In this document: one piece after another, positions 8,128 through 29,480 of the stretch | How the letters are laid out: each line of letters opens with the position of its first letter | Numbering within the stretch: the first letter of the stretch is position 1 | Program-made: the position numbers and the translations under genes | Source: Amyloporia xantha | Taxonomy: Eukaryota; Basidiomycota; Agaricomycetes; Polyporales; Adustoporiaceae | Assembly: GCA_036971615.1 (NCBI GenBank) | Contig: JAYKKR010000001.1 | Coordinates: forward strand, 2,852,001 to 2,916,000 | Direction: 5' to 3' | Length of the DNA stretch: 64,000 nucleotides | The notes under the pieces: model-generated | What the model was told of the DNA's origin: nothing | Seen by the model: only the letters and a program-made list of their open reading frames with translations | Databases searched by the model: none

Positions 8128-9526
8128 CTACTCGTCATCGGACACAGGCTCGAAATCCGCCCCCTTCAGCGCAGCTTCCTCCATCTGCTGCAGGTGAGTG
8201 TCGACGTCGCGAAGGACCTTCATACGCGTCTCGAGAAGGGCCCGTTCTTCCCGAATCGACCGGACAATGGCGCGCGAGTGTGGAGTCAGAGCCATCGAGT
8301 CGAGGTCATCTGTCTCAACGCCGAGTCGGCTACCACCGTCAAGCGGCAAGGCCAGCTTCGGCAGCAGCACTCGGCGACGTTTCGAACTCGTCGAACCAGC
8401 AGTCGAAGGACCCGGCGACGGCGGACGAGCTACACAGGCAATACGATTAGTCGAAACTTTACCTCCTCCATCGAAGACTTACTGCGTTTCTTCGAGCCCC
8501 CGCCGTTGCGAGCCTTTTTCGTCTTTCCGAGGACGTTCACCCCGTCGTAGTAACAGCCCTGGACCGTCTGCGTGCACTTCTCGCACGAGACCGACCCGGC
8601 GACCCACACGCACTCGACGGGCGCGCTACGGTATGCGACGCAGCGGTCGCACTACGGGCGAAGTGTCAGCACACGAACGACGGACAGGGACGACCGAGCT
8701 TACCTTCTGTCCTCCTTGCCGCTTCGCAAGGGCGATCGCGGCCCTCTCCGCCTCGACCATTGGCAGCGCCCGCTCGGCGGCCTTGGGAGTCTTCTACGAG
8801 CAAAGGGACAGAGTCAGTTTCGAGTTGAAGAAACAGGCGGAAACCAAGCGGACTTACCTCGAAGATCTCGATGACATCGTCATCGTCGATTGCGCGCTCC
8901 TTCCCCTTCGAACCTGCGGGCGCGGACTCTTCGACGAGTCCTTCGGCGGCTGCGATTCGCGCCAGCTCTTCGTCGGCGGCTTCCTGGTCACGGCGTTCCT
9001 GCTCGGCGGCCTTCTTCCTTCGATCATCGTCCTCTTCCTTCTTGCGGTGTTCGTCATCCAGGCGGCGAGCTTCGGCAGCTTGCTCACGTTTGCGAGCCTC
9101 CTCGAGGCGTCGTGCCTCCTCTTCGGCAAGGCGTTTTTCTTCGTCTGCGCGGCGTTTGAGGACCGCGTCGATTGCGCTGGCAAGGGCCGGCCAGTCGGGG
9201 CGAGCCCACCCCAACCACGACTCCACCGCACGTTCGGCGAGTTCACCGACAACCGTCGCGACGCGACCTTCGAGCTCGGCGTCCGTAATCGACCCAAGGG
9301 CCTTGCGATACGTATCCTAGAAAGCAATAAGACGACGGAGACTGCGAAGGGCTACATCACTTACCAGAAGCGGCACGACGTCCTGCGCCCATGCCTCGAA
9401 GACCTCTACGGCCTCCACGTTGGTCGGAGGGTTGTCGAGGGCCTTGACAAGTCGTTCCAGGGCGCATTGAGAACGCGAGGCGACGGCGGGAGTCGCAGAT
9501 CGAGGGGTCATCGAAGAAGCAGACAT
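8128..9526 (-). CDS. Antisense spliced gene in retroelement A: coiled-coil protein with cysteine cluster
   Basis: Five exons on the strand opposite pol. Exon 1 starts at ATG 9526 (MSASSMTPRSATPA). Exon 2 holds a Trp-rich helix (ESWLGWARPDWPALASAID) and a long Lys/Arg/Glu coiled coil. Exon 3 is short (KTPKAAERALP). Exon 4 has six cysteines spaced CX2CX9CX8CX2CX6C (starting CDRCVAYRS). Exon 5 begins in a basic RRR region and ends SDDE at 8128. A TATAAG box lies at 9614-9619, about 90 nt upstream. Exon number and order match B exactly, and all exons are open, yet protein identity to B is only moderate (about half by eye). The cysteine spacing resembles the fungal Zn2Cys6 type with a longer second spacer. 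Possibly a nuclear regulator of the element; function unknown. Confidence 0.7.
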
Positions 9527-9613
9527 GATGGAAGCAGCGAGTAGGTGAAGTGGTGCGGCGAGGTGGCGACGAAGGAACGATGGAATGGGGAAAATGAGGC
9601 TAAGTCCAGCCAG

Positions 9614-9619
9614 CTTATA
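9614..9619 (-). promoter_or_regulatory. TATA box of the antisense gene, element A
   Basis: TATAAG on the minus strand, about 90 nt upstream of the ATG at 9526. The same box and spacing occur in B (32956-32961). Confidence 0.5.
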
Positions 9620-9732
9620 TCCCCTTTTCGACCAGCGTTTAGCGCCGACCACGAGGCGTTCGAAACCGACACGGGTTGCCATGCCGCTTCGATCCATTCA
9701 CGATCATCACGCTTCTCGCATCACGTGGAGGA

Positions 9733-9765
9733 CCGAGGACAGTCCAAATTTCAATAAGGAGGAGA
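9733..9765 (+). promoter_or_regulatory. 3' polypurine tract of element A
   Basis: AATAAGGAGGAGA immediately precedes the LTR start TGATAGG at 9766, the expected position for plus-strand priming. Confidence 0.65.
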
Positions 9766-10875
9766 TGATAGGCGCCAAGCCCCTCTGGGCCCCGATACCG
9801 CTCTTTTCGGCAATCGCATCCCGCCCGGCACTTCGGCTCAACGCTCAAAGCCTTCGATTTCGTCTTCGACGCCCTTTGATGCTACGCACGTGACCCCCGA
9901 CGCTCAGTACCCTTCGACACTCTTCGACGTCTTCGACCGTTCGCTACGCTTGCTCGAAGCTCGGCGCGGTCGTTCCGATGTCTCGCCCTTAGATCCTAGG
10001 CCATCTCCCGCATTCGGCGGACAATGGTGCCACTCGACGCCGCTCGTACAGCGCATGCATCGCTTCGTGCCACACCGACGCGTCCGGTCTTTCCCGATTA
10101 GGTATCGAGCCTCGCGGCGTGCTTTCAACGACGGATATCGGTCCGAAGTGTCTCGTATGTTTCTCTTCATCTCCGCGTTCGGCATGATGTCATTCGACCG
10201 ATGGACTCGATACGTGCCACTCAGTGAGGCAAACTCGTGTAGGACAATGCAAAGCCACTCGTACTAGTGTGCCACTCTCGATAGTCGTAGTGTTCCGTCT
10301 CGTAGTATAAAATCTGTCGTAATTCTCTCTCAAATACAAGTTCCTTTTCCCCCTCGAGTTCAGAGCTCATAAGTCGAGTTCGCCCTGCGTCTAAGCCTTC
10401 TACTGCGTTCACCGTGTTACTTCGTCCGAAACCTCGTCACTGCGTCTATTCGTCGATACCGTCTCGACGAACCTTTGATCCTACGATCGCCTTCGATTAC
10501 CATCCTTCGGAAGAACTGCGTTGCGCCTCGAACCACATTCTAGCTAAGTCCTCCCTCTCGAAGCATTTCTATTCCTTCTACGATACATCGAAGCATTTCT
10601 ATTCCTTCTACGATACATCGAAGAGCTCTATCGAGCTTCGATTGTTTCTACCGATCCCCACTAACTACCCCCAGCCTCCGAGTAGCTTCGACGACGTGTC
10701 GAGCTACGTCGTAAGTTCCTCTAGCGTTCGTAGCCTCTTCAAAGGCGTTTCTCATGTTCCCTCGAACCGCGGGACACCTTGCTGCTAACTCCCCTCTCAC
10801 TAAGACTATAATCCGTCTCTCTAGTCCCTTTAGGTCGCACCCAGGTTAGGGGTTAGGGTTTCGTAGGTCGTATCA
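9766..10875 (+). repeat. 3' LTR of element A (about 1110 bp)
   Basis: Starts TGATAGGCGCC and ends GTCGTATCA (5-bp inverted TGATA/TATCA termini). It matches the B LTRs. It is longer partly because of a tandem duplication of about 30 bp at 10560-10620 (GCATTTCTATTCCTTCTACG unit) that is single in B. A telomere-like GGTTAGGGGTTAGGG sits near its end. Confidence 0.85.
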
Positions 10876-11183
10876 CCGGCCACCAATAGTTCCGCGATAC
10901 TAACTCGAGGGTCTTGGCCCGACCAGGGTGACCAGCTGCAGGCGCGTCGTGGTGGATTTTGACGATATCACACCGAAGCTCTGCATTTTTTGGGACATAG
11001 ACGCATCCTCGAAATAGCAGAAGTCCTTGCTCGGCATTCCACTCGGTGAAGTCACGCTGCAGGCGGGGCGGGCCTAGATTTTGAATCTTTTCCAAGGCAT
11101 CCGCCACCTCCCGGTCCTTGTCCGAACATTCACAAATGCGCTTCAGCAGCAATCGATCTGCCACAACTGCTGCATGCCCACGC
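10876..11183 (-). pseudogene. Element C integrase N-terminus, fragment between element A and the KDZ element
   Basis: The minus strand reads a Ty3/gypsy linker and H2C2 integrase start (LFRGCVYVPKN, KIHHDAPAAGHPGRAKTLEL, NYWWP). The element A LTR interrupts it at the WWP motif. On its other side it is contiguous, in frame, with the RNase H end of C at 29481 once the 18.3-kb element and one TSD copy are removed (join RGH-AAVVADRL). The rest of the integrase and C's expected 3' end are not found left of element A. Confidence 0.85.
11175..11183. repeat. Left target-site duplication of the KDZ element
   Basis: TGCCCACGC, repeated at 29472-29480. A single copy restores element C's reading frame. 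Confidence 0.85.
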
Positions 11184-11655
11184 GAGCCCATTCAGTCATT
11201 ATAGCCTACTCTATAGGGAGAGATATGGGTGAAATTTTTATTACTTAGTAAGGAGAGCGGACGTCGGCCGACGCCATCGCTATAGCCTGCAGTGCAGGGT
11301 CGGCCGAGAGGGTATAATATAGCCTGTAGATACGGCGCGGCCGAGTGCGCCATATTTCCGTAGTATATTCTCGCCTTCAAGTAGTGTCGGCCCAGGGCTA
11401 TAATATAGCCTTTAGATACGGCGCGGCCGAGTGCGCCATATTATCGTGGTCTATTCTCGCCTTGAAGTAGTGTCGGCCGAGGGCTATAATATAGCCTTTA
11501 GATACGGCGCGGCCGAGTGCGCCATATTTCTGCGGTATATTCTCGCCTTCAAGTAGTGTCGGCCGAGGGCTATAATATAGCCTGTAGACACGGCGCGGCC
11601 GACTGCGCCATATTATCGTGGTATATTCTCGCCTTGAAGTAGTATATTCCGCCCT
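11184..11655. repeat. Left terminal inverted repeat with 87-bp subterminal array
   Basis: The first ~130 bp match the reverse complement of the right end almost perfectly. Four 86-87-bp units follow, beginning near 11311, 11398, 11484 and 11570, each with TATAATATAGCC, GCGCGGCCGAGTGCGCC and a TATATTCTCGCC element. Confidence 0.9.
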
Positions 11656-13936
11656 ATTGTTTCCTTTTCTACGCTTTAATTATATGCATTTCAATAAATC
11701 TCATGCTGTATGTATAATAATAATAATGCCTCGCCATCCATTAGGCTTTGCAATCTGTCATTCATCACGACGTTTCGTGTGTGGTCAGGTCAGTGGTGTG
11801 ACTACAATTCAAAGCGCAAGGACTGATTGGCCATTTCCGACGGCTCCATACACCCCACCCAAGACACGCGCAGAGACAGGGCCATCTTACATGTGTCCTT
11901 CAAAGGATCCAGCTGTGTGGACCCTTTGTGGGACACAGATCCAATGGCCATCTCAAGCGGCAGCATCGCGCTATATTCTACCGCTATACATATTTCATGT
12001 ACGCTAAGGTCATTTGAACTGGATCTACCCACCTACCAGCATCTAATACATATTCTCGCCCAACCCAAGACACGCGCAGAGACTGGGCCATCTGATATGT
12101 GTCCTTCAAAGGATCCAGCTGTCTGGACCCTCTGCGGGACACAGATCCAATGGCCATCTCCAGCGGCAGCATGCGCTATGGAATCATGGCGCCACCATGT
12201 CCAGACGCGCTATGCAACCATGCGCCACGTACCTTGCCTGCCACATTGTGAGGCGTATGGCACGCAGGTGTTATGATGTGCTGGCGCTGTTGGACGGGGC
12301 CATTTCATCCTTGCTACCCTGGGTCACCCAGAGGAATCGAATCACCGTCCACGTTTTGAGAGTACCCCTGATGCTGATGGACAATTCAGCTGCATCCGGA
12401 GTACTCATGGCGCGGAAGGCAACTCGATTCCACTGGTGAACGTAGAGAGCAAGGAGTTAATGGGTTTATCCAACAGCGCCTTGCATGAATGAGTCAGACT
12501 CCAGACAGGAAGACTTGACTTATGTTCCTCCGAGCCGCATACCTGTGGCTCAGAAGGACATAAGTCAAATGGGCCTTGTCCGGCGGCGACGGGCGCCAGC
12601 AGGTGTTATGATGTGCTGGCGCTGTTGGACTGGGCCATTTCATCCTTGCTGCCCTGGGTCAGCCAGAGGAATCGAATCGCCGTCCACGTTTTGAGAGTAC
12701 CCCTGATGCTGATGGACAAATCAGCTGCATCCGGAGTACTCATGGCGCTGAGGGCAACTCGATTCCACTGGTGAACGTAGAGAGCAAGGAGTTAATGGGT
12801 TAATCCAACAGCGCCTTGCATGAATGAGTCAGACTCCAGACAGGAAGACTTGACTTATGTTCCTCCGAGCCGCATACCTGTGGCTCAGAAGGACATAAGT
12901 CAAATGGGCCTTGTCCGGCGGCGACGGGCGCCATCTGATGGCGAAGTGCATGCGCGCTCATGCTCGCTGTTGGGAGATGGCGCTATGGCTCGCCTGACAG
13001 GGCGCCTTCATCTATGGTCTTCAGAGCCGCATACCTGTGGCTCTGAGGGCCACAGACTGAAGTTGCGCTGTCCGGCGGCGACGGGCGCCATCTGATGGCG
13101 CCGTGCATGGCGCGCTTATGCTCACTGTTGGGAGATGGCGCTATGGCTCGCCAGACAGGGCGCCTTCATCTATGCTCTTCAGAGCCGCTTACCTGTGGCT
13201 CCGAAGGTCATAGAAGAAGGGGCCTCGTTCAGCGGCTATATGCGCCATCCGATGGCGCCGTGCATGGCGCGCTCATGCTCACTGTTGGGAGATGGCGCTA
13301 TGGCTCGCCAGACAGGGCGCCTTCATCTATGCTCTTCAGAGCCGCATACCTGTGGCTCCGAAGGTCATAGATGAAGCCGCCTCGTTCAGCGGCAATATGC
13401 GCCATCCGATGGCGCCGTGCATGGCGCGCGCAGGCGAGGCACATGGTGCGCAGCCGGCGTGATGTGCTGGCGTTCTCGACCTGCATGATTCCTCAATGCT
13501 ACCCTGGATGAATCGAATCGCCATCCAACCATTGTTGGATGGCCATCCGATTCAGCTGCTTGAATACCAAGGCCATTGAAGAATTGGCTGGCGCAGAAGG
13601 ACGTCATGCATTTATGCACTCACCGCGCAGACGAAACGGATACATACGCCACCTGAAAACACCCACCTTTGACATGGCGCGATGTCCAAAGAGCATGATT
13701 TGCTGGCGTCCTCGAGCTCGGCCATTCGTCAATGCTACCCCGAAGTTAAGCGTCTGAATCGCATCGCCATCCACATGATTGGATGGTAATGTGATTCAGC
13801 CGCTTAAATACAAGGTCCATTGAACAAATGGGAGACGCTGGGGACGTCATGCACTCGTGCTCATAAAGGCAGCGACAAGAAATACATACAGACGACGGCG
13901 AGATCCACCTACGACATGGCGCGCAGAGACCCGGTC
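11656..13936. repeat. Non-coding, internally repeated left shoulder of the KDZ element
   Basis: No gene is supported. Three repeat families lie in tandem: a ~115-bp unit twice (about 11856-11975 and 12062-12172, with CTTCAAAGGATCCAGCTGT); a ~335-bp unit twice (about 12264-12600 and 12595-12930, with GTTATGATGTGCTGGCGCTG); and a ~155-bp unit in about three to four copies (12945-13440, with GGGAGATGGCGCTATGGCTC). Short ORFs here follow the repeats and are not genes. Confidence 0.7.
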
Positions 13937-14689
13937 TCACTCCTCATCTGGCAACAGCACCTCTTTGAAGGCGTCCAACATCCTTGTGAGGTCGCCGGCA
14001 TCGCGATGGCGGCTCTCGGCGAAGCGGGTGACCAGGCGTTCGACGTCATCCAATCGATGGCTGACCGCTCTCATATTGCGGTAGTTGACTTGATAGGTGT
14101 CTCCGCGACGCTATGCGGCAATCGATGCAATTTATGTGAATGAATGTGTTGAAAAGGTGGGAGCGGGGTGGCGACTTACTCTGTCATGCAGTGGATACTT
14201 CCACCATGCTGGAAGGTGACTGGGAGGGTCGTCTGGCCAAGTCCACCACGCGGGCTCGGTTTCCGTGTGCAGCTTCTGTAGCTGCAAGGATGGCGGCGAG
14301 GCGAGCGGCGTGAACGGCTGTATCTCGAGGACGTGGATCCGTGGGACGGCCCCAAAGACGGTGGCGTCGCTGATCTTGCGGACGACGTCGGGGAGCTCGA
14401 CGTCGGTGACGCCGACGAGGGCGAGGCGGCCAAGGCAGTCGCGAAGGGCTTCCTGCTGAGCGTCAGAGCAGACACGTTGGGGAAGGCGAAGCTTACCATT
14501 TCCATGCGGAGGCCAATCTCCCACCGCGCCAAGGTGATGTCGGCCAGCCACCTTGTCTCTACCGGCGGCGACAGACATGATGGTCGCTAGCGCCTGCTCG
14601 CAGCGCCAGGCATAGTATGAGATCAGTCGGCGGTTGATAGCGATGAGGCTGGAGAGGGACTGTTCGCGATTCTTCAAGGCGAGAGCCAT
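13937..14689 (-). CDS. Small helical protein of unknown function, KDZ cargo (5' exon uncertain)
   Basis: Three pieces are visible on the minus strand. From ATG 14689 a helical segment begins MALALKNREQSLSS. A central part follows (ETRWLADITLARWEIG, then after a 41-nt intron EALRDCLGRLALVGVTDVEL and WWTWPDDPPSHLPAWWKYPL). The last exon, after a clear GTAAGT...TAG intron, reads RRGDTYQVNYRNM and ends LLPDEE at 13937. The junction into the last exon keeps frame. The first and central pieces are in different frames with no good intron between them, so either a one-base indel or a missed exon lies near 14570. No known domain. It is divergent from the transposase by about 275 bp, so the two may share a promoter. 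Confidence 0.5.
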
Positions 14690-14964
14690 TGCGCCGTGGG
14701 GTGAATGGGTTGGTAGGCCAAGGCGAAATGCAAGGCGAATTTGAGGAGTCGATGGTGGATCGGGTGATCGCCTCGAGGGAAGGTCATGGCGAAGATCCGT
14801 CGGAGATAAGCATCGGCCAAGTATCTGAAGGTGATCGCGTGGATATGATCCGTTGTTGATAAGGGATCAGGAGGCAGGGGCGTGAGAGATCGCCATTCAG
14901 TATGAAAAGGAAGCTGTCATGGATCACAATAAGCCAATTGTCATCTGTCCGCAGTGATACGGCC
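14690..14964. promoter_or_regulatory. Divergent promoter between small gene and KDZ transposase
   Basis: About 275 bp separate the two divergent start codons. Sequence alone suggests a shared regulatory region; no clear TATA box is assigned. Confidence 0.3.
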
Positions 14965-17900
14965 ATGGCCCGCACGAAGAAGCAACATGTCAGTGGCGAT
15001 GCGGTGTTCGTGCGTCGCGAAGAACGGCGAACTGCAAGAGGCGCCGTCACATACGTTCCCAAGGAAGCACCGCTACCGCGTGCGCATGTGCCGACAAGCG
15101 CATCAAGATCGCCGTCGAAATCCCCCTCTAAAGCCGCGTCTCATGACGCATATTCCGAACCCGTGCAGGAGCATGTGGTGTTTGACGATGTGATGCCGAT
15201 GAAGAGTCTGCACAAGGTGAGTACCGTTGCCTTATTTGGGTCGCTCAATGTCAACGCCGAAGGCGGGCAGTCGCAGAACGACTTTATGCGCGAATGGCTT
15301 CCACTTCGCGATGTGTATCTAAGCCACATCATCGAGCTAGAAGCTCCACCAGGTGAGAGACGATGCAGCAAATGCGCTGATGCGCATGGCGATTGGCGCT
15401 GCTTGGAATGCTTTGGGCGCCCCGTGTATTGCGAGGACTGCCTGCAGTTGACGCATCGCCGCATGCCGCTGCATCGGGTGGAGAAGTGGGCGGATGGGTT
15501 CTTCGAACCGGCGTGGCTTCGGGAGGTTGGGGTGCGGATGCATCTCGGGCATGATGGCGAACCATGTGTGGATGCGGAGTCCCCGATCACGCCGCTGGAT
15601 GGGGATGCTGATAGCGATGGCGAAGACGACGACGTGAGTGACGCCGGGGACAATGAAGAGGATGAAGAGCCAATCAAAGCGGACTCGACGGCGCCGCGAA
15701 GTCACTACGCATTTGACACTTTGACCATTGTAGATGTTACGGGGATGCATAGCCTGGACGTTGTGTGGTGTCGGTGCGATAACAGGCTCACTCGAGACCT
15801 GCAACTATTGGACATGGGCCTCTATCCTGGGAGCACCAAGCGGCCACGCACTGCGTTCACATTTCGGGTGTTGGATGATTTTTGCTTACCAACAAGGAGT
15901 GCAAAACCTCGGGGATGAATTACTACAGCAAGCTTCGACGTGTCACAAACTCCGCGTTCCCGCATTCAGTGCAGGTAAGCCGCTATGTGCATATGAAGCT
16001 GTTTTCGCCGTTGAGAAGGGGCTAGAACCGTTACAGAGAGCTTCTGCGGGTGTCCCGCCAATGGCGAAACCTCAAATACCGCAAATGGCATGGATATGGT
16101 CATGGCGCCTCCAACGCGATACCAGCTGGTGGCCTCGCTTTGGGGTGCCCGGCATGTCCCAAGCCTGGCGTGAATCTCGCTTCCGGATGGCGTGATGACC
16201 CCGTACAGTGAGCCATGTAAGACGTTTTTGGGCGGCATGTGTAACGCGATAGCAGATGGAAGTACATGAGGAGCATCGTAATGGACGGCAACTTTAGCGC
16301 GGAGCATCTCAAGATGCGTCGCCCAGAGGACGACGTCATTCTCAGCGATGGCGGCAGCTTTCATGGTGGGCGATGACACCTACAAGAAGCATCTCGCTGT
16401 CGCCATCGAGCATAAAGAGGTCCGTGATCGACTCCTAGTGGATGAACCGTTGGACGCTCATAGCCTATGTAGAAATCCTTCTGTCACGATCATCGCGCCG
16501 TCAACCAGGCGAATGCAGATCGCCATAACCTTGAAGCCACGGGGATTGGCGCCGCGGCCTGTGCGCGCCATGGGTTTTTCATGCCGCATGCGGTGGTTGA
16601 TTTCCAGAAAGGCGAGAGGTAAGTGGTTTGCTATTTCCTTTGTTCACTTACACCCGCCATCAGACAGATGAACATGGATTACGCGCTGAGCGAGGTCCTC
16701 GCCACCATGGCGGGTATCCAGGTGCTGCTGGTGATGTACGACATCATGTGTCAATACGGCATCAATCTCATGAAGCGGTTTGGGGAGAGTGAGTATTTGC
16801 ACATGCCGCCGAACGTGGAGATACGGCGCGGAATAGGCCTGTTTCATGTCCACGGCCATCAAGACACATGCTTTCCTCGCTACTCACCCAACTTCATTCC
16901 CGGTGCTGGTCAGATTGATGGCGAAGTGATTGAAACCCTTTGGGCGCCGTTGAATCTCATTTCGGGTAGCACACGCGGCATGACCACAGCACATAGAAAG
17001 GAAGTCATTGACGATCACATGAATGATTCCAATTGGAAGAAGTTGACCGGGATGGGTGGGCCAACCTTGACATTGGTGGAGAGGTTGATTGACTGTGGCT
17101 TCAACAGCGAACACCCTTGTTAGGAAATGGCGAAAGGCCAAAGCCGGCGCCACGGAGAGCGGGGATGTGTTGGAGTTCATTGAGAGATCGAGCACGGAGG
17201 AGCAGCTAGGAGAGTGGCGAGCCGCTGAGGGCGAGGCGCTCGCCATGCGTGACGCTAAAATCAGCGCGATGGATGTCTTTGACGTGCAGATGAGAAAGGG
17301 TGAGAGTGCACACTAGAGGGTACGGCCATGATTAATGATGTGGCGCAGCACCCACCCGGATGCAGATCCAACTTCAACTAACGCATAACGGAAACATCGC
17401 AACATCGCCATCAGGGCGTAGCTGCATGGATAGCCACGGGCATGAAGATTCAGGAATTGCAGTAGGTAGCGTCATTGAACATCGGGTGCCAAGCTCACAA
17501 CAGGTCTTAGGTTGGTCATTAGCCAACTGAAACGGAAGATGGGCCGGCATCCGCTGGTGGCGGACCGCCTTGCGCTGGAGGAGCGCCGTCAGCGCCTTCA
17601 GAAGCGTATAGTGACATTCGAGTCCAAAGCCGCTTCGTACATTCCACTTGTGGCCGAGCCCGATGGGGATGGCGCCTCAGAGGCTTATGACGGGTCTGAA
17701 TGGGATGCACTGGAGGAAGATGTCAATCCTCTTGATGAGATTTACACCGGTGAGATCGATTCTGGAATCCAGCCTGAGAGCGCCATCATTTCGCTTCCAT
17801 CGCAGCTTGGCTACGATGTTGTCGTGGCCAGCGGTTTAGAGGACATCGCTTCGGAGGAGTTGAGTTTGCGCATTGGGCAGGCCAATGACGCCCTTCATCA

Positions 17901-18528
17901 GATTCGCCTCGCCATTGGTTACAAGTCAGTGCTGTTTCGTACGGCGGTTCGTCATGCAAAGAGCCAGCGCCAAAAGCTCTGGTCCTGGGACGAGGTCATC
18001 TCCACGCAGAGGGCGGTGCTAGAGAACGTGCGCATTTACAGTCAAAGCCGCCACGCCATCCTCGCTCTGAATCCGACTGACGCCATCAAAGCGCGCTTCC
18101 GTGCCATTCAACATGATGACCTCAAGGCGATCACCGCGCTGCTGGACAACTCCATCCGAGGAACACGGCAGGACAAGTTGTCCTGGATATGGACCGTAGA
18201 CATCGAGGGCGATTCAACGCAGTCCAACTGGTTGACGGAGTGTGAGTGCGCTTGTGGTCCGTCCAATGCCCGCAATGCTGACTGCAGCGCGCCAGTGCAT
18301 CACGTCAACTGGTTCCGTGCAAAATCACGTAAGGATAGGTGGGCGGAGGAGTTTGTCATGGTCACGGCAGAGATGGCGTGGACGCAGGCGAGCTTCCATA
18401 ACAAGGCGAACCTATGGCGCTCCCGCCTCTATGGGCCTCCAGGTCATGTATGCTATGCGCGCCGTCAGGTCTCGCTGTGGACGCGCATGGCGGAGCATGC
18501 CGCTTCTCGCTTTAATACATGTGTGTGA
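14965..18528 (+). pseudogene. KDZ-family transposase with CxC2-type cysteine cluster (nine exons, three apparent frameshifts)
   Basis: Exons: 14965-15216, 15271-15974, 16026-16207, 16256-16419, 16473-16618, 16664-17055, 17108-17299, 17349-17461, 17511-18528. The N-terminus has the cysteine cluster (CSKCADAHGDWRCLECF, then CEDCLQLTH). The central KDZ core follows: TAFTFRVLDDF, MNYYSKLRRVTNSAFPH, IVMDGNFSAEHLKMRRPEDD, ATGIGAAACARHG, MYDIMCQY, GLFHVHGHQDTCFPRYSPNF, IDGEVIETLWAPLN, TAHRKEVIDDHMND. The C-terminal helical part includes VNWFRAKSRKDRWAEEF. Frame is lost at a T run (15879-15883, one T short), at 16359-16361 (one T extra) and near 17416 (one base extra). Every intron boundary otherwise joins conserved motifs, so decay is recent or the indels are sequencing errors. 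Start chosen at MARTKKQH. Convergent with TET/JBP, 74 bp apart. Confidence 0.88.
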
Positions 18529-18601
18529 TGGTTCGCCATTCACGACCCTACTAGATACACAAACATAGACTTGACACAAATACAGATCTGTGTATGCAAC
18601 C

Positions 18602-19861
18602 TTAAGTCCACTCCATCCAGTGCGGTGCCTTGACATTCATCGCGGCATGCACTGAGTCCCTCATAAAATAAGCGTAGCATATGCGCTCTCCATCGCATCT
18701 CTGAACGCCATGGCGCAGAAGCTTTCCGCAAAGCGCAACTACGCTACCCGCCTTGTAGTCTATAGCGATATTTGGACCATCCAGCTGCATTTCCAATGCG
18801 CCGTAGCTCCCTACCGTGGTGAGAAGGTCGAACCACTGCTTGCGCGAGTTTTTGTCGCGGTGTAGCGGCGTCTCGCGATTGCTGATGACCTGAACGCCAT
18901 TGAAGATCGAAGACCAAGCGCTTACTATTGCGGGATACTCCACTTCGCCAAGAAGCGACTCCATGCATGTATGTCCCGCAGCATACAGGTCGGGATGCAT
19001 GATGGACATCATGCCGGATAGGATGGCGGCTGATTCACGGATGGCGGTCAACCATCGCCATCCACTCTGGCCATCTTTATCGCGTAAGCTCGCCGAAGGC
19101 AGCATTGGGTCCAATGGGCCCTGGATGTATGCGCCGTCATTCGCCAGTCATCAGAGTTAAGGGATCGTCAGCGTACCGTGTGACCCAGCGCGTGCCATCC
19201 TGGAGACAGATTGACAGTCCCCGGAGGTGTGGTGCAGGTTGATCGATCGCGGAAATATGCTTCATGGTTTCGCCAACTGACCCCCGGGGCTTTACGCATC
19301 AGTTGTGTTGATAGGTGGGCCGTCGCCAATTGTATCTCCCTCTGCCGACACAGCGTAGTGAGCACGGTGCATGGCGGAAGATGAATGAGCCCACCTGGCG
19401 ATTCACATGAAGGACGCCCGGAAGCACCCATGCTAGGATGCGCGAGTGCTGGTCGAGGAGCACGCAGGGTTCATCTAGAACCACGGTGGTGTCTGGGAGG
19501 AGAGGCGGCCATTTAGTCTTGAGCTGCGCCTCCAGATTCACGTTCTGTCCGGTGTTGCCCACGCCTATAGCATCAGAATACCGGTCAATGTCCCAGGATA
19601 AGCGCACTACTTTCCGGTCAGCGCAGCATGAGTAGATGCCCACAGCATCCAAGAGTACACACCAGGTTTGATATATGCCTTTGCGAGCTGGTGCGCGATC
19701 TGGCTGCATTCGACGACGATATCGGCGCGGATATGTGTGGGAGGCTGTGGGTTTCTCAGTTGTCCGGCTGCATTCCGAAGCTTGTGTAGCCAAAACTGAA
19801 ACATATCGCGCATGCAAGCTGCCAATGTGTCGCTGAGCTCCAAGCCGCTGCCCGCTATCAT
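18602..19861 (-). CDS. TET/JBP-family 2-oxoglutarate/Fe(II) dioxygenase (intact, four exons)
   Basis: Exons 19861-19663, 19564-19395, 19341-19177, 19120-18602 sum to 1053 nt (350 aa) with no frame break. N-terminal helices are followed by NVNLEAQLKTKWPPLLPD, then SRILAWVLPGVL, NLSPGWHALGH and the dioxygenase core. The Fe(II) ligands appear as HRD in TPLHRDKNSR and the distal His in KLLRHGVQ; the 2-oxoglutarate-binding Arg is in GERICYAYFMRD. Families of this type oxidise 5-methylcytosine (TET) or thymine (JBP) in DNA; which base this one uses cannot be told from sequence. Fungal expansions of TET/JBP are known to associate with KDZ transposons, and here it sits tail-to-tail with the transposase. 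It is the only element gene besides the repeats with no apparent lesion. A further 5' exon upstream of 19861 is possible. Confidence 0.88.
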
Positions 19862-20309
19862 GGCTTACAGACGAGATGGATGGAGATACACGCCCCATCT
19901 CGCATTATTGCTCAATCTGCCATCTACTGACCATGCTGCAACAGCATGTCCATTAGCTTTGCACACTTGTTTGGTCGATCACATCGTTGAGCAAGCGCCG
20001 GCAAGATCAGGCCCAGCCGATCGGCAAGGCGTGATCCGGTGATCGAGGCGCGTCATTGGCATGTGGACCGCGATTCTCGACCACGGCGCCATTACGCCGG
20101 GGCCTCGGCCTGTGAGATGCCGCGCTCCGCCGGAGGGATGCCGGTCGGGTCTGCCCCGACATGGACGCTTGCAGTGTAAGAGAGATCAGCGGGGTTAGAA
20201 CAGGACGAAAGTATCACCGGAGGTCAGACACGTCTGGGCAAATGTTCAGTTGGGAGTGCCCAAGTGTCTGTCATCCTGAGAGCATCTCGGTCTGCTTGTT
20301 GTCCTCGCC
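19862..20309. promoter_or_regulatory. Divergent promoter region between TET/JBP and the HMG-like gene
   Basis: About 450 bp of GC-rich sequence between divergent starts. No supported ORF beyond a possible short 5' exon of the TET/JBP gene. Confidence 0.35.
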
Positions 20310-23300
20310 ATGGGAATAGCTATCCTGCAGGCATATCTAGACAAGATCCCAGAGCAAATAGAGCGATGGCGCAACACCAAAGGCACTGCGAGGGCACCCA
20401 TTGTCGATGAGGCTGTCAATATCCTCATGGAACAATTTGCAGAGCTGACAGATAAAAATGGCCTGAAAAAGGTCAAACCAACAGTTCATGGCATTGTCAT
20501 CTTCGTCATTCACACATTTCTATAGTCCCTGGGGACCTATTTCAGCAACCACTACCGAATCGTAGAACCCCAGGTGCCCATCCCTGGAACGAAAAACGGT
20601 CAGCGAGGGATATGTATCAAGAGGAGCACAAAACAGAGCTGCTAAGGGTGGCCAACGAAAGGACGGGAGGACGAGGTCTGGCCCACCAGGAGATAGGCGC
20701 ATACACCAAGGTAGTGAGCGAGTATTGGGGCAAACTGGATGAGGACGCAAAGGCGGACTACCAGATGAAGGCGGATGCGTTCAACAATGACGCCAAAGAG
20801 GTCAAGGCTGGATCTTCGGCGTGAGTGGGAGCGCGACCTTTGTGCTAAGTTAACGGCAGCTGATGGCGACGCAGGAAAGCGGACAAGGAGCTCATTCCGT
20901 TTCTGAGGAAATACGCTCGAGAGGCATACCGACGCCATGGTGTCAGGATCTTTACGTTGAGTAGCTACAAATCTCCTGATGGGAGAGTCGTCATTCAGGA
21001 GTGAGCAGGCAATTTGTATCGCCTCTCACCGCTCTGACCGCTTTTCACAGACACGACTTCAACGATGAGATGGAGAATGGAAAAGCCTTTTCCAAGGTGG
21101 ACGATTGGCACGCAGATACGATGGTCAAATGGGCCAAGTACAGCACAGAGGCATTTGATAGCAATCGCGAGGCGAGCGTTGACAACGGAGAGGGAACGTC
21201 TCGCGGCACACGGCGAGAGCTGCTGGTCGACGATGGCGGTCTCCCGTTGATACCGCCAATGGATGGCGAGGATGCGCCATCCCTGCCTGTGATGAAATCC
21301 ATGATCAGAGACTTTCTGTCTACTCACTACCGTAAGTCTTGATCCACACGGCGCTCACAAAGACGCTGATGGCGCCATAGAACGGGCTGCAGGAAGCGCC
21401 AAAGAGAAGTGCCCTTGGCGCGCGCTCAAAGTGCGTGGGGCTGAATTTATAGAAGCAGGAATGGTGCCAGACGGCTTCCAATTCGACGATCCGTCGCATA
21501 TGGTCAGGAAGGACATCATCGCGGTCCTGCATCATTGGAGAGCGGCGCAAGAGGCAAACAAGGGGCAGTGCGCGTTCCGCTTCAAGGCATACCTGAAGAG
21601 CAGGGGGACGAGGATTCGGAGCTAATCCCTGCTGTGTATGAGGCGGCGAGAGCACCCAAAGGCGCTAAAGGCAAGGCGGGCCCCAAAAAGAAGAAAAAGA
21701 AGGCGGTGAAAGACGGCAAGGGCAAAGGCGTGCAACGTCTCAGCACCGATGACGATAGCGCCGTGGACGACGACACCGAGCACGAGACTTTCAATCTGGA
21801 CATCGACGTCGGGTCAACTTCCGACGAAGATGATGACAGCGAAGATGCAAAAGGCGCCGCCCCCAATTGGGCGCTGCTTTCACGTAGACGGCGTCAGCAA
21901 TGGCTGGAGGCGGCATCGCCATCGCCAGAATTTCGCGTGATCGTGGACGCGCTGCCTCGCATGATGGTAGTAACTTCATTTTTCTCCGTAAACTAAGGCT
22001 TACCTTGCGAGTGATAGAGTGGGCTGAAGACGACAAAGCGGGCACCGGAAGGCGCCGACTGGGCGACCTGGCACAACCCACATCGACACTTGTCCTATAT
22101 GGTTCATCGCCACGCCCATGGGCTCGATCCAGTGCTGAAGTGGCTCGACTCGAAGCCTTATTTGAACAAGTCCGGCAGGCTGACAGGGGACGTCGGCATG
22201 ATTGAACAAGTGCTCCTCGTGATCGCCATGATAAGCCGCGATCTGACGGCGGCACAGTTCGCCTTCCAGGATCCCGACGCCCCGCCTTCGGACATTCCAC
22301 GCCATGTCAGCGAGAGCGCCATACCCTTCGCCGTGATTGCCCAGAGGCTCGACCCGCATGTATCATCGTTGTGCGCGCTGGTGAAGCAGGCACAATCTGT
22401 GCAAGGCGACGCGCCATCCATGGAAGGTAGCTCTGTCACCCGCAGTAGCACTGCGGCCGCGGCGCAGCCAACACCTTTGGAGGCCCCACCACCGGCGTTG
22501 AAATATGGTCCACCACCGCCCCACGTTCCCAGACAGGGGAAGCCATCACCTCGCCCTCCCATGATGCCCACTGGGAATCTCAACAAGGGTCCACCTCCCC
22601 CACTCCGCCCGAAGCCTCGCCATTTGCAAACCCTGCGGGCGGAACAGGAGCGTCGTACGCCGGACCCGCCAGCGGCATTGGCGAGGGAAGCCGCGCCAAT
22701 CCTCACATCCCCTAAGATAAGGCGATCGCGAGACGCGCATAATGGCCAAGTAGCTCAGCAATCCAGCTCGCCGTTGCCGGAACCTCTGCGAGGCACGCAA
22801 AAACATTCGCTTCCGTTTCCAGTCACAGGAAAACCGCCTCCAGCAAGGCCGCTAATGACCACGGGAAGATCGGTCTTTCCATCCATACCTAAGCGCGCCT
22901 TGGGTATGAGACCGCGTCCACAACTAGAAGAGAGACCGCCATCAATTGACGGCGCACCGCCTTCCTCGCCAATGGCGCCAGGGCGCGCACCACCATCCTC
23001 CCCCATCGCGCTCAATGACGCAACTGTCCGCCGCGGGAGTATGGATTTCTCCTCCTCTCCACCTATTGCGATGAATCAGCTCTCACCCGTTCGAGATATG
23101 AGGGGCCTACAGGTTCATTTCTCCGACCGTGAAAATCATGACAGTGAAGACGAGAGCGACGGCGAGGCCAATCGTGGTCCTTCTCCCTCACTTCCTGTGC
23201 CAAAGCGCAAGACACGCCAAACAGCTCGGCAGGCAAAGGAGATCAATATTCAGGCACTGCCAACGGCAGGCGGGTCCTCGATCACGGGTGCTCTCAACGA

Positions 23301-23589
23301 CATGAAGGTCGCCACCCACACTCGTCAGAAGACAAAAGCTAAGGAGGAAAAGTTGAAAAAGCGAAGTCACCGCGTGAGCGAAGAGGAGGAAGAGGAGGAG
23401 GAAGCAGAGAAACCACCCCAACCTCGTGAAAAGCGAAAAAAGGCGGGTCGCTCAAAGCGGGCTCTGGCGGAGACTTATAGTGATGGCGAGGAAGAGCAGG
23501 GCGAGCCTGCCCCCGCCATTCGTAGGTCATCGCGCAAGACAGGTAGGGGAGCTCAGCCCCGACCCACTAAAGCGCGTGGTCGCCGTTAG
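20310..23589 (+). CDS. HMG-like/proline-rich nuclear-type protein, KDZ cargo (one-base lesion)
   Basis: Spliced model: exon 1 20310-20471; exon 2 from 20546 (QPLPNRRTPG) through an HMG-like segment (RDMYQEEHKTELLRVA ... YTKVVSEYWGKLDEDAKADY) to about 20820; then exons reading ADKELIPFLRKYARE, HDFNDEMENGKAFSKVDDW, CPWRALKVRGAEFIEAG; an acidic/basic region with KKKKKK; and a final long exon (WATWHNPHRHLSYMVHRHAHG, a Pro-rich zone from about 22480, a basic C-terminus ending at 23589). The frame is lost in a G run at 21603-21607 (one G short) and is otherwise continuous. The EEHK...WGKL pattern resembles HMG-like modules common in Agaricomycete proteins, suggesting DNA binding. Function in the element is unknown. 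Convergent with the next gene (220 bp). Confidence 0.6.
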
Positions 23590-23808
23590 AATACTATTTC
23601 TCATGTACACTACCTCGCATTTAAATTCAATGGCGATGATTGAACTCAGCGCTGCGAAGGATGGCGATGGCGTGCCGCTCCCTGTGCAAGCCCCCGTGGC
23701 TCACTGTGATGCCGAGGGTGTTGCCGTCATCGCACTCTCAATCTTACTGGTCGCTGGAGAGTGTACACAATGCATTCGTTTGAAAGTACAGCGAAGTTAC
23801 AAAAAGAA
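23590..23808. terminator. Convergent 3' ends of two cargo genes
   Basis: About 220 bp between converging stop codons, presumed to hold both poly(A) regions. No distinct signal is assigned. Confidence 0.3.
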
Positions 23809-26581
23809 TTATCTAAGGCGAAGGGGAGGCATCTCGGCGTCCTCGACAGCGACGGGTGATGTTGCGGCATCAGGCTCTCGCTCCTCCGCGGCCACGCTCG
23901 CCATCTCGTCGTCGTCGATCTCCAAGGAGAAACGCCTGATTGAAGGTGTGGAGCCACCGGCGGGCGTCGACAGAGCTTCATTCGTGAAGTCCGATTGATC
24001 TCCTACAGAGCCACGCTCTGAGGTAGACCACGAAATGGGAGTGGCTCCCTCGTGAGCGCTGTCCATGATCGCCCTCGCCTTGCGCTGTCGTTGCGCGTCC
24101 TGTTCCGCCTTCTGCACGAGCTCCACCGACAGATGCGCCTTGTCCAATAGCGTCTCGGCCTCCGCGTCGTTGTGGCGAGCGACGTCACGGCGCACTGACT
24201 CAAACTGCGCGATGAGTCCCTGTAATCTCGCCTCACCTGCCTCAATGCCCGCCATCGCCTGCCGCGTCCTCTCGCTCTCATCGCGCACGTTGTCCATCAA
24301 GGTGTCCACGCGCACCTCCATGTTCGCGACTTGGGCACCAAGGCGATCCATCGCCATGTTCTCCTTGGCTGCGCGCAGATCGTCCTGCAGAACCGTGACC
24401 ATCTCCTCGAGCGCGGCGATGCGGCGACGGAGTCCTCAGAGCGCACATCTTGCAGAGTCTGCTCCGCGCCTTCCACTCTTGCCAGTAGGCCGCCAATCTG
24501 CCCCTCGGCGTTATCAATGCGCTCGGTCATGTTGACCTGCTGCCTGTTGATGGCGAGCAGTGACTGCTGGAAGTTGTCGACCATGCTACCGAAGCGGTCT
24601 TGCCACGCGGTCATTATGTTGATGTTCTTCTCGAGTCGGTGGCCTTGCTCAGTGAGGTACGCCGTAAATGGCTGGAAATGAGACAGCTCCTGGTCCTGCG
24701 CGTAGCGCCCTTCATCCATGGCGGTGGGGTCCTTGGAGAATCCTACGTAGTGGTGGTACTCGCCATGGTGGTCTGGCAGCCACACATTGACTTGGTCAGT
24801 TGATCGCGCCGTCCAGAAAGAGTGAAGCCGACTTACATTTTACCTCGCCAGGCCTGAGCCCAAGCCGCGCCGAGCGATCGCTCGAGCTGCTGGCCTCTGC
24901 CTCCTGGAGAGGACGGTCCGCGCGCTCCTTGCCCTTCCCTTTAGCCACCGCTGGAGGTGGCTTCCCAACCCACGCCTTCATCGAGCTGAGCGACGTCTTC
25001 GGGAGCGGCGCTATTGGGCGGGACGCAGCCGCATCGCTAGTCGCTGACGCCACCCGCAGCTGGCTGTCCACCTCCGCGTCGTCCTTCGCATCGACATCCG
25101 CGCTACCCGCCTTGCCATCGTCCTTTTCCCCTTCTTCTTCATCCACATCCATCTCATCGCTCGCCTTCGATTCCGAACCCTTCGCCGCCGCCTTGCCCCG
25201 CTTGCCTCTATCCTCCACAAACTCCTTCCTCTCCTCATCCCAGCGCGGTGGAGGAGGCTTGATGCCATTGGCGAGGCTGTTCTTGATGACGTCCTGATAC
25301 TTGCTTGCCAGGACTGCACCGTAGGGGCCCCTGATCGGATTGCCGCTCAGGTTGTGTGGCACGATCGAGCAGCCTATCTTGCGCTTCAGGCAGCGCATGC
25401 AACGCCGACCGTCCACGACAGCAAGCCTGCATTCAGCTTTGGCCTTGGCGCAATTTCCGCAAGGCATCGCCTGAAGGCATGTCAGTCAGCATCGCTTGCC
25501 GCGCATCTGGTAAACGTACTCACCGAGACAAATGTCTCCGTCTCCTCCATCTCCTCACTCTCGCCTTGAGCATCCTCGTCCATGTCGTCATCTTCGGGCG
25601 CCGGCGAGGCCTTCGCCTTTCCCTTTCCCTTCCCCGTCGACGATCCCGCCTTCGCCTTCGACCGCGTCTGCCTGGCGTCATCATCCTTGCCCGCAGGAGA
25701 CTTGCGCGATGAAGCCTTCTCATTCGTCTTCGACGTCGATGGCCCCGCCTTCGTCTTCATCCGCGGCTCAGACTTGCCGGCCGTCGTTTCCTCTCCTGCC
25801 GCTTTCGCAGTGGTGGTCTTGACTCCGCCCTTGGATGCCGCCTTAGTTCCCGGCCGTCGTTGCAGCCCCTCCGCGCCGTGGCTTCTTCGTTACTGGTGCA
25901 GCGATGACGACACCCTCATCGCCGTCCGTCGCTGGCGTCGTTCCCTTTGACCTTCTAGAGGCCGCCCCTGCGTCGTCATCCGCCCCCTTCTTCGCCACTT
26001 TCCCTCGACTCCCGCCCGCCTCTGCCTCCTCCGTCACCCCACTTGGCCCCGCAACTCCATCCCCACCCAGCGCAACCTCGCTCGTACGCTTGCGCAACAG
26101 CGCTGCTGAGCCGTTAGTGATGACGTGGCGTATGGTTTCGCAGTGCACTCACCTTTCCACCAAAGGTTGCCCCCGAGGTCTTCGGCAATGTAATCGCCAT
26201 GCCACACGTATTTGGAGAGGCCATGGCTTTGAATGGCGGGGTCGTCAACCTTGATGGCAGTCAAGTCCACTCCGCGCTTCTTGTGCGACGCCACCGTGTA
26301 TTGCGCCATGGCGCTGACCAACAGCGGCGGCACTTGTAATCCCTCGCGGTGTTTTCCCAGCGCCTTGATCTTCGCGAAGATCGATTGCTAGAGGTGCCAT
26401 TATACAGACTCAGCGCCACAGTGCTCACCCTGATTGTGTTACAATCACTTACCACTTCCTCCCAGAAGTTGCTCTCAAACACCTTGTACTTCGCGTCGCG
26501 CTTCCCGGGCAGAAACTTCAGCGCCTCTTCCAGGCGCACTGCGGCGATGATGATGTCGCTGTTGATGCTGGAGGCGGACAT
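23809..26581 (-). CDS. Zn2Cys6-like cysteine cluster and coiled-coil protein, KDZ cargo (two one-base lesions)
   Basis: Starts at ATG 26581 (MSASSINSDIIIAAVRLEEA). The next exon reads LLVSAMAQYTVASHKKRGVD and GLSKYVWHGDYIAEDLGG. A long Lys/Ala/Ser-rich disordered region follows, then a six-cysteine motif spaced CX2CX6CX9CX2CX6C (CGNCAKAKAEC ... CMRCLKRKIGC), which fits the fungal Zn(II)2Cys6 consensus. An acidic stretch (DEMDVDEEEG), then WLPDHHGEYHHYVGFSKDP and a long heptad-rich coiled coil end at 23809. Frame is lost near 25851 (extra A in GGGAAC) and near 24435; the rest joins with good introns. The module order (helix, cysteine cluster, coiled coil) recalls, in a different order, the antisense gene of retroelements A and B. 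Divergent from the gene at 26830. A DNA-binding regulator is plausible but not shown. Confidence 0.6.
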
Positions 26582-26829
26582 GGTGGTAGAAGCAAGCGAG
26601 ATGGGATTTGACAGCTGTGGTGATGGCGGTGGTGGTGGTGGTGGTGGTGGTGGTAGAAGAAGAGACGAAGTCAGACCCACGCGGTGCATCGCGTTGGTTG
26701 ATGGCGGGCGCCTGGCGGAAAGATCCGCGCCCGTTCGATCGGCACCGCACGTGTTGCGCTCATGGGTATATTAGATGCCTCTAGACGAACTTGGCACGTT
26801 TCCGCATTCCTTCCGCCTTGCTTTCAACC
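26582..26829. promoter_or_regulatory. Divergent promoter between Zn-cluster gene and Ser/Pro-repeat gene
   Basis: A 248-bp spacer between divergent starts. It contains a GGTGGTGGT simple repeat near 26630-26653. A GTATATTA TATA-like site at 26766-26773 lies about 60 nt before the ATG at 26830. Confidence 0.4.
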
Positions 26830-28538
26830 ATGTCGGAACACGCAGACGAGCTAGGTGAGCACATCATGTAGATATCCTCACGCCAACCTGCGCTCACTCC
26901 CCTCAGCTCGCCAAATACTAGACTTCGACTCCTCGCCCATCAGAGGTGATGCCCCTCGCCCTACCCTGGACTTCGAGTCCTCGCCCATCAGAGGGGATGT
27001 CCCTCGCCCAACTCTGGACTTCGACTCCTCGCCCATCAGAGGGGATGTTTCTCGCCCAATTCTGGATGTGGTGTCTTCGCCTTCGCCTTCGCCTTCACGC
27101 ACTCTGCCACCAGCGCGTACGCTTGGCGATTTGTCCGCATCGCCATCGCCATCCCCGCCGCCGCTCAACTTTCGCTTTGCTATGTCGCCAACGCCTGACC
27201 TTGCCAACGTTCAGGGGGATCTGCACAACGTAGCACTCCTCTCGATATGCCGCCACCGCCGTCCGCGCCTACTTCAAAAAGACGTGTGGACCTCGTCTTC
27301 CCCCAATTAACGTCCCCTCAACTACGTAGGCCCACAATGCAGTCGGCATCTTCCCAAGATATAGATCTCTTCCGTCCATCGCTCAACATTTCGCCCTCAC
27401 CGCCGAATACCTCGCTATCAAGACAACCGTTGGATTTCACCTCGCAATCGCGAATGCAGACCTCACCTTTTAGATCCGCCCTGGACCTTTCGCCATCGCA
27501 GGTAAACACCCCGTTGCACCGTCCACAGCTTGACCTGGAGGCATCTCCAGAGCGAGTGCACAGCGCCCAGCCTACCTTCGAGTCGCCTGTCCCTCATCGT
27601 GCACACCTCGACTTGTCGCCATCGCTGTCTCCAGTCCTCCAGCTCCGCGATCAGCTGGATCTCCCGGCCACTCCATCCCCAGGTATGTCCACACTCATGT
27701 TTTTAAACCTATTTCCTACTGACACTCCATTCCTCTACTATTGAAGATAGAGGCGCGCCTATGGATGGCGTCGTGGATGGCGGCGTGGACGGCGGCGTGG
27801 ACGGCGGGATGGACGGCGCACTTGATCACGACCTTGCGCATAGCCAAGATGGCGATGTTGACATGGCGGATGAGCGCCTCATCCAACTCAATCGCCAGGT
27901 ATTTTGCCTCGCTTTCTCTTGCCTTTGTGTTTGAATACTCATAGACAGTACCTTGACATTATAAATGAGGTGTTGGACGAGCACAACATACCCCGCGGTC
28001 CTCTGGTAAGTGAAAGCCCTCCATCGCCTTCATCGTCATGCTGATACCACTCCAGGACTTGGAGGCACACCGTCAGCGGCTCAGAGACCGTGGCCAGGAT
28101 CTCCCTCGTACCTTCGCCCTCGCTCCCATTCTGGATCACGACGAGGACATCATTGACTCAAGTAAGTACAGCGAAATTCACCCTTTCACCATACTTAAAT
28201 ATGCAAAGAATTGGAGAATCCATACTTTGATGATGGCAGAGGCCACTCCCCAATAGCGCCATGAACGCCATCGAGATTAAATTCGGTATGACACTGCGCT
28301 CGCAATTTGCCATTCGCTAAAGAAAACAATAGAAGGTTTTCCTCGCGGAAGCGAAGAAAACTTGATGTTCCTTCAAGCGCAATCCCTGAGCGAGAGGTTA
28401 CGACGTATAGAAGAGGACATCGACGTCGCCAACGCAATCTTGAAGCTGCACCAGCCCATCAAATCCTTGCTCACAGCCAAGCCACCGCAGGACGGGACCA
28501 CTGGGGTTGAAGCCATGATGTGGAATGGCGAGATATAA
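26830..28538 (+). CDS. Ser/Pro-repeat protein with C-terminal helix, KDZ cargo (one-base lesion)
   Basis: ATG 26830 (MSEHADEL), then a 52-nt intron. The second exon has four imperfect repeats of about 20 residues built on LDFDSSPIRGDVPRPT. It continues as a Ser/Pro-rich zone with repeated (L/F)DLSPS-like motifs (DLFRPSLNISPS, ALDLSPSQVN, HLDLSPSLSP). The frame is lost in a G run near 27213-27217 (one G short). Later exons encode a Gly/Asp repeat (GGVDGGVDGGMDG) and helical segments (YLDIINEVLDEHNIPRGPL, LMFLQAQSLSERLRRIEED), ending WNGEI at 28538. No enzyme domain is visible. The repeats may be phosphorylation-rich linkers. Rightmost cargo gene, 200 bp from the right subterminal array. Confidence 0.55.
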
Positions 28539-28734
28539 TTCGTTATACAGTATATACTCCGATGTCGTTGGCATCAAGGACAAAATGTAGTCACAGAATA
28601 TTGAGTTGCTTTACCAATATACGCGAACACATGACCTGGCGGCGCCGATACCGCGCCATGAAAATACCATCCCAGTGGGCATACCAGGCCCATAAGCGCG
28701 GCGCGCCATGATGCGCGATATGAATACCACTGCA
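28539..28734. other. Spacer between last cargo gene and right subterminal array
   Basis: About 200 bp with no ORF or repeat I can support; it presumably holds the 3' end of the Ser/Pro-repeat gene. Confidence 0.4.
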
Positions 28735-29471
28735 TCCACCATCGGCCGACGCTACTTGAAGGCGATAATATACCACGGAAATATGGCGCACTCGGCCGCG
28801 CCGTGTCTAAAGGCTATATTATAGCCCTCGGCCGACGCTACTGGAAGGCGATAATATACCACGGAAATATGGCGCACTCGGCCGCGCCATGTCTACAGGC
28901 TATATTATACCCTCTCGGCCGACACTACTTGAAGGCAATAATATACCACGGAAATATGGCGCACTCGGCCGCGCCATGTCTACAGGCTATATTATACCCT
29001 CTCGGCCGACACTACTTGAAGGCGATAATATACCACGGAAATATGGCGCACTCGGCCGCGCCGTGTCTAAAGGCTATATTATACCCTCTCGGCCGACACT
29101 ACTTGCAGGCGAGAATATACCACAGAAATATGGCGCACTCGGCCGCGCCGTGTCTACAGGCTATATTATACCCTCTCGGCCGACGCTACTTGAAGGCGAG
29201 AATATACTACGGAAATATGGCGCACTCGGCCGCGCCGTATCTAAAGGCTATATTATACCCTCTCGGCCGACGCTACTTGAAGGCGAGAATATACCAGGGA
29301 AATATGGCGCACTCGGCCGCGCCGTATCTACAGGCTATATTATACCGTCTCGGCCGACCCTGCACTGCAGGCTATAGCGATGGCGTCGGCCGACGTCCGC
29401 TCTCCTTACTAAGTAATAAAAATTTCACCCATATCTCTCCCTATAGAGTAGGCTATAGTGACTGTATGGTG
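28735..29471. repeat. Right terminal inverted repeat with seven-unit 87-bp array
   Basis: Units start about every 87 bp (TATATTATA at about 28811, 28900, 28985, 29072, 29159, 29246, 29333). The outer ~130 bp are the reverse complement of 11190-11320. Because 87 is divisible by three, a fortuitous 240-codon ORF runs through the array; it is not a gene. Confidence 0.9.
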
Positions 29472-29480
29472 TGCCCACGC
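29472..29480. repeat. Right target-site duplication of the KDZ element
   Basis: TGCCCACGC, identical to 11175-11183. Confidence 0.85.

Follow-up and report, generated by a model that had tools for sequence, protein, structure and literature searches.

The window analysed here is a stretch of 64,000 nucleotides from the basidiomycete Amyloporia xantha (JAYKKR010000001.1, positions 2,852,001 to 2,916,000 of the forward strand), located on contig C1 of a 46.8-Mb genome in 60 contigs. It contains an element of 18,290 bp, which is probably a recently multiplied, TET-carrying (TET+) Kyakuja-type KDZ cut-and-paste transposon moving six co-adapted genes as one unit. The gene order is g1 (minus strand), a KDZ transposase (plus), a TET/JBP dioxygenase (minus), an HMG-box-like gene (plus), a Zn2Cys6-like gene (minus) and g6 (plus). 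The element bears on the question of why TET genes are found in fungal transposons. In this genome there are dozens of near-identical copies with precise boundaries, empty insertion sites, two further six-gene families and a common end motif.

Ends, insertion site and copies

Comparison of copies places the element at 11184-29473 on the plus strand, with the ends GAGCCC...GGTGTG, between 7-bp target-site duplications CCCACGC at 11177-11183 and 29474-29480. Its inverted arms, 11188-11395 (plus) and 29262-29469 (minus), are 208 nt long and 97% identical, which confirms the matching inverted ends noted in the original prediction, made from the sequence of the window. That prediction set the limits at 11175-29480 with a 9-bp duplication. 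Both copies of the 9-mer TGCCCACGC are present, at 11175-11183 and 29472-29480, and flank 18 kb with near-identical inverted ends; the mobile unit is real, but its exact limits needed correction. The GAGCCC and GGTGTG tips with a 7-bp duplication were found in 9/9 copies of the same family (family A) with both ends readable, the window included. Copies C55m and C12a, whose left tips were not readable, were left out of this count. The matching run was exactly 7 bp in six of the nine, 9 bp in two (one of them the window) and 10 bp in one. Since the right end always reads ...GGTGTG, the additional TG matches by chance and the duplication is 7 bp; the element therefore spans 11184-29473. A 9-bp duplication was rejected on the basis of the 7 bp seen in the other copies. 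One copy each of two diverged families also showed a 7-bp duplication. The ends of family B are those of family A, and family C carries related ends with their order exchanged; the termini are GA..TG in A and B and CA..TC in C.

Joining the flanks over 300 bp gave an empty site that matched 40 scored places in the genome out of 48 candidates; identity was 93-98%, and 39 of the matches ran over the whole length. In one minus-strand frame, 762 codons are open to one side of the join and 110 to the other. These data indicate that the element was inserted within coding sequence of a repeated retroelement, whose frame is restored as predicted, and the empty sites that had been named as a check recur elsewhere in the genome.

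Ten other copies, chosen from the locations given by end and flank searches, were compared with the window element. All ten were collinear with it save for changes in repeat number, one 34-bp gap and small indels, and each differed from it by 0.28-0.63% in substitutions. The left unique flank gave 40 scored matches at 99-100% (75 candidates) and the right one 40 at 97-100% (56 candidates). The collinearity contradicts both a shorter element bounded by these ends and a position of the inner genes outside the unit. That the 18 kb arose by segmental duplication, or merely adjoin a shorter KDZ core by chance, is extremely improbable: no support was found, and the 7-bp duplications at different sites, the empty sites and the ten collinear copies all contradict it. 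A 335-bp direct duplication within the element (12264-12898) was apparently a single unit in 7/10 copies.

The single copies of families B and C that were read keep the gene set and order of family A. In family B all six genes occur in the same order, g6 being recognised from its predicted C-terminus and 221 aligned codons, and in family C all six are kept, with g6 at only 27% identity over 63 codons. The family C copy (C22:165798-189605; L031/L032, L034/L033) has an extra inverted pair of Zn2Cys6-like and g6 genes at its left end. A family D is known by its coordinates alone.

A genome search gave 128 Tet_JBP matches, 79 of them above the Pfam cut-off. The neighbourhood counts used 144/175 KDZ rows, 101/123 Zn gene rows, 85/95 HMG rows and 41/49 rows of TET below the cut-off; for KDZ and HMG, a gene matched in two pieces was counted once. 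Among the matches listed, KDZ stood tail to tail with TET at a distance of 1.6-1.73 kb at 67/79 TET loci, and a Zn gene match lay upstream within 15 kb at 64/79; both partners were present at 56/79. The HMG gene was divergent within 6 kb of TET at 64/79 loci, at 2.3-2.5 kb in 61 of these. Among the same matches, 68 of the 144 KDZ rows had no TET within 4 kb. Therefore, TET usually travels with the module, but KDZ also exists without TET. Co-occurrence of g6 is known for families A, B and C only. The TET and element copies tend to cluster, perhaps in heterochromatin or at centromeres, with at least three TET loci in 10 of the 46 occupied 300-kb bins (for example C12 2.37-2.55 Mb, C34 2.2-2.44 Mb and C23 0.22-0.42 Mb) and other copies elsewhere on the same contigs. 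Repeated homologues of g1 (about 71% identity) were found on C16 (340-451 kb), C39 (57-138 kb) and C24. Several of them are spaced about 12.4 and 15.6 kb apart and most, judged by eye, adjoin no TET locus above the cut-off; they may represent another element family or array.

Genes of the element

The predicted presence of KDZ, TET/JBP and four further genes inside one mobile unit was borne out. Genes were modelled with a home-made splice model and by comparison with families B and C, and exon borders are approximate. Between families A and B, the ratio of nonsynonymous to synonymous substitution rates (dN/dS), calculated without exon pieces that had no match, was 0.10 for TET, 0.13 for KDZ, 0.16 for HMG, 0.26 for g1 and 0.33 for the Zn gene. 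These five genes are under purifying selection between the two families; synonymous sites of g6 were saturated.

The TET/JBP gene (18602-19861, minus) encodes a model of 352 amino acids. Its last exon matches CcTet chains (E about 1e-18), and the alignment covers the HRD motif as well as the downstream His and Arg. Ser stands at the place of CcTET Gly331 and Asp at that of Asp337. The AG-type residues published for the TET of Kyakuja transposons are Gly or Ser at position 331 of CcTET and Asp at position 337 (PMC12730594). Judged from its residues, with HxD, the downstream H and R and the Ser and Asp positions all present, the predicted protein is an AG-type TET/JBP. The reading frame is open without a stop, so the gene was rightly called intact.

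That description does not clearly extend to the KDZ transposase gene (14965-18590, plus; 3' end approximate). Its KDZ domain (PF18758, E 1.6e-31) and CxC2 (E 8.9e-21) were identified with Pfam on the plus strand; a search of the PDB with a KDZ exon returned nothing useful. In the window copy a run of T near 15,880 is one base shorter, and the frame appears shifted relative to the transposases of families B and C. The shorter run is common to 5/11 copies. The frameshift is possibly decay or an assembly error, the latter because indel sites are numerous among the 11 copies (109 sites, 64 in a single copy; 99 short indel sites). Scores of gene intactness per copy were dominated by one-base indels and no conclusion was drawn from them.

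The HMG-box-like gene (20310-23586, plus; exon model approximate) has a long low-complexity C-terminal part. In a Foldseek search with its model, ranks 1-36 were HMG-box proteins (by title or recall), with a probability of up to 0.96. This fold supports the predicted HMG-like character, but the best E value was 0.68, and the Pfam HMG_box_2 match (E 0.0036) was below the cut-off. Zn2Cys6 binuclear clusters have the spacing C-x2-C-x6-C-x5-12-C-x2-C-x6-8-C. In the Zn2Cys6-like gene (23809-26581, minus; exon model approximate) the six-Cys cluster lies in the exon at 24837-25470, and six Cys with Gal4-type spacing are invariant in 4/4 sequences, in agreement with the prediction; its tail appears coiled-coil-like by eye. 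Profile searches with the HMG and Zn genes gave weak matches only. Gene g1 (13937-14689, minus; about 227 amino acids) carries a conserved WW-x-WPD...WW motif and had no match in Pfam. Gene g6 (26830-28535, plus; exon model approximate) has SSPIRGD-type repeats and a conserved C-terminal part.

Relation to known transposons

By its KDZ domain and 7-bp duplication the element probably belongs to the TET+ Kyakuja-type KDZ transposons, a published kind. A description of complete TET+ Kyakuja elements and their 7-bp duplications appeared in December 2025 (Kojima 2025, PMC12730594), and the view that a complete element of this sort is much less described is not supported as it stood. Zisupton and Dileera have 8-bp target-site duplications (PMC12730594), and membership of either was rejected on account of the 7 bp found here. 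The element resembles the published TET+ Kyakuja elements in its KDZ transposase, its TET close to CcTET with AG-type residues and its 7-bp duplications. The two Kyakuja families described from L. bicolor have CA..TG termini and lack inverted repeats, and CA..TG is not given as defining the group in the parts of the article used here (PMC12730594). Unlike them, our element has inverted arms of 208 nt and ends in GA..TG, and it bears subterminal tandem repeats and six genes. The main text of that article makes no use of the terms HMG, zinc or subterminal (PMC12730594). The full set of six genes with the palindrome was not found in the texts covered by the literature search, and a search for KDZ, HMG and TET jointly gave one paper, on a brown alga.

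The Cryptococcus KDZ1 element also has long inverted repeats (241 bp), but differs in its length of about 11 kb and its 8-bp duplication, and no TET gene is mentioned in the sections of the report drawn on here (PMC12810828).

An association of KDZ with TET/JBP was reportedly described by Iyer et al. in PNAS in 2014, and the abstract is said to name additional proteins, including one with a divergent HMG domain. The adjoining TET and KDZ genes of our element resemble that association. The element here is complete with its ends and has a Zn2Cys6-like gene, g1 and g6.

End motif, CpG changes and the role of TET

The palindrome ACGTCGGCCGACG, which includes CGGCCG, lies at position 78 from each end of the window element (11261-11273 and 29384-29396). 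CGGCC-rich subterminal tandem repeats accompany it, with a unit of 86 bp on the left (11310-11643, plus) and 87 bp on the right (28740-29435, plus). The palindrome occurs at position 77-78 in 6/6 ends of families A, B and C (one copy each), with one difference at one end of C. Since the inverted repeats of A and B are almost the same, the independent comparison is that of A/B with C. In the outer 1.5 kb the density of CGGCC per kb was 33 in family A, 14 in B and 21 in C, compared with 1.6-2.2 inside; the corresponding counts of CGGCC/GGCCG were 49, 21 and 32 in the outer 1.5 kb and 27, 30 and 49 in the 16-22 kb inside. The arrays of A and C contain many complete CGGCCG motifs, but B has just one at each end. 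A pattern that combined the end with the palindrome and allowed any gap of 53-80 had 202 matches in the genome, and its reversed control had 3. Match length, measured in 80 of the roughly 100 rows listed out of the 202 (one row of 76 bp and 19 rows without sequence were left out), was 81 in 76/80 and 80 in 4/80.

It has been proposed that TET lets Kyakuja transposons escape silencing by methylation (PMC12730594). For this element we propose a more specific scheme. The KDZ transposase would act on the GAGCCC/CACACC ends, and one or more element-encoded putative DNA-binding proteins, Zn2Cys6-like or HMG-like, would recognise the CGGCC repeats. TET would oxidise 5-methylcytosine on the element, by which source copies would stay expressed, and copies would nonetheless become methylated and lose CpGs. 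The step by which the Zn2Cys6 and HMG proteins would bind the CGGCC palindromes and subterminal repeats and recruit TET to the element's own ends is speculative and, in our judgement, rather unlikely. Under self-addressed demethylation a few source copies would be kept less methylated and the other copies would be methylated and decaying. If true, it would be a fungal, enzyme-carrying counterpart of the plant VANC anti-silencing system, whose targets are tandem repeats that vary between related VANDAL families (Hosaka 2017, PMC5735166). VANDAL/VANC is a possible analogue in having a transposon-encoded DNA-binding factor and a transposase more conserved than the accessory protein; VANC also has peptide repeats, which may be compared with those of g6 (PMC5735166). 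It differs in that VANDALs are plant elements and no TET is mentioned in the parts of the report used here (PMC5735166); for the element of this study demethylation is a hypothesis. The special value of the element lies in its accessory genes and end motif, which open anti-silencing to direct tests.

The two putative DNA-binding proteins, HMG-like and Zn2Cys6-like, might instead be accessories of transposition together with the subterminal repeats, acting in synapsis and end recognition and unrelated to methylation, which is a real possibility that falls somewhat short of an even chance. TnpA of En/Spm is an accessory transposition protein of this kind. In line with such a role, the motifs are densest near the ends and the palindrome keeps a fixed spacing. 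Among the end-pattern matches listed, 5 of 31 adjacent end pairs are 3.4-6 kb apart (C1:3938219-3941591, C4:177025-181795, C12:2493323-2498760, C12:3977441-3983374 and C16:344428-348963). They carry the same end motif and palindrome and are probably non-autonomous derivatives; this favours a cis-acting role in mobility. An accessory role leaves the retention of TET unexplained, with its dN/dS of 0.10 and the active-site residues kept in the window copy.

Alternatively, TET may act untargeted and genome-wide on methylated DNA, with separate roles for the other cargo proteins; we consider this plausible, if not quite probable. Oxidised 5-methylcytosine has been reported in two basidiomycetes (PMC8889193). 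In C. cinerea and L. bicolor retrotransposons also carry it, and AG-type TET has been speculated not to be target specific (PMC12730594). The absence of CpG protection in the element, described below, is also in keeping with untargeted action. The two putative DNA-binding genes beside TET (each at 64/79 loci among the matches listed) and the concentration of CGGCC motifs at the ends of three families speak against untargeted action.

Mutations were analysed in a 15.2-kb core of 11 copies, which gave 144 singleton changes and 98 shared biallelic changes. CpG transitions made up 96/144 singletons and 28/98 shared changes (p 5.8e-9), and at noncoding and synonymous sites 57/84 and 18/66 (p 1.3e-6). 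Per site, CpG transitions were in 18-fold excess over other C-to-T changes among singletons. A retroelement control (11 sequences, 500 bp) gave 10/31 and a 2.2-fold ratio. In four pairs of elements, CpG transitions were 22/44, 37/73, 48/98 and 59/96 of the differences, and in retroelement pairs 13/81 (the pair in the window) and 62/324; two further retroelement pairs were too diverged and were left out. Mutation of the type seen in repeat-induced point mutation was considered. CpG transitions are strand-symmetric (50 and 46) and the NCG context bias is mild (2.5-5.0%), so plain deamination of 5-methylcytosine fits better. The host genome has four C5-methyltransferase domain matches above the cut-off. 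The poorer share of CpG transitions among shared changes, which are older and were propagated, suggests that source lineages were less methylated, and the contrast of singleton with shared changes is a first assay-free handle on such lineages. The signal, or part of its singletons, might be an artefact of the assembly, in which methylated CpGs were misread by long-read sequencing. The many singletons and one-base indels fit an imperfect long-read assembly, and copy C19 alone supplies 37 of the 96 singleton CpG transitions, but the retroelement in the same assembly gave only 10/31 (a small sample), and even an artefactual signal would probably mark methylated CpGs. We regard an artefact as an improbable explanation.

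Several findings weigh against the scheme proposed above for the element. The retroelement control shows a smaller CpG excess than the element does (2.2-fold and 18-fold), contrary to what efficient self-demethylation predicts. Shared changes are likewise enriched at CpG, 7.6-fold, so the source lineages were not free of methylation. The observed/expected ratio of CpG is an ordinary 1.02 in the element and 1.26-1.59 in the 2-kb bins that contain the bulk of the flanking retroelement, which gives no sign of long-term protection. From the excess of CpG transitions in single copies, element copies are probably methylated at CpG, and TET would not protect them fully. The CGGCC repeats may serve transposition alone, and counts from tandem repeats are not independent of each other. 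The Zn2Cys6-like gene had no significant match in profile and fold searches. The family B copy has HRN in place of HRD in its TET, and among the matches listed 12/79 TET loci are without KDZ, 15 without a Zn gene and 15 without an HMG match. The simple claim that TET shields copies from CpG loss is not supported, given the CpG excess and the ratio of 1.02. As for the functional toolkit of the original prediction, a gene set kept between families fits it, but the proposed self-epigenetic system is still a hypothesis, with copies that bear a strong CpG-transition signature and are probably methylated.

The retroelement bins (4001-10000 and 32001-44000) combine their high CpG ratio with depletion of TG/CA, which one would not expect of a transposon when the genome has C5-methyltransferases. 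The bin at 44001-46000 has an observed/expected CpG of 0.44 and a GC content of 0.44, and is possibly an old, CpG-decayed repeat. Further along the window there is a 446-nt inverted repeat of 97% identity, with its arms (49037-49482 and 49890-50335) 407 nt apart.

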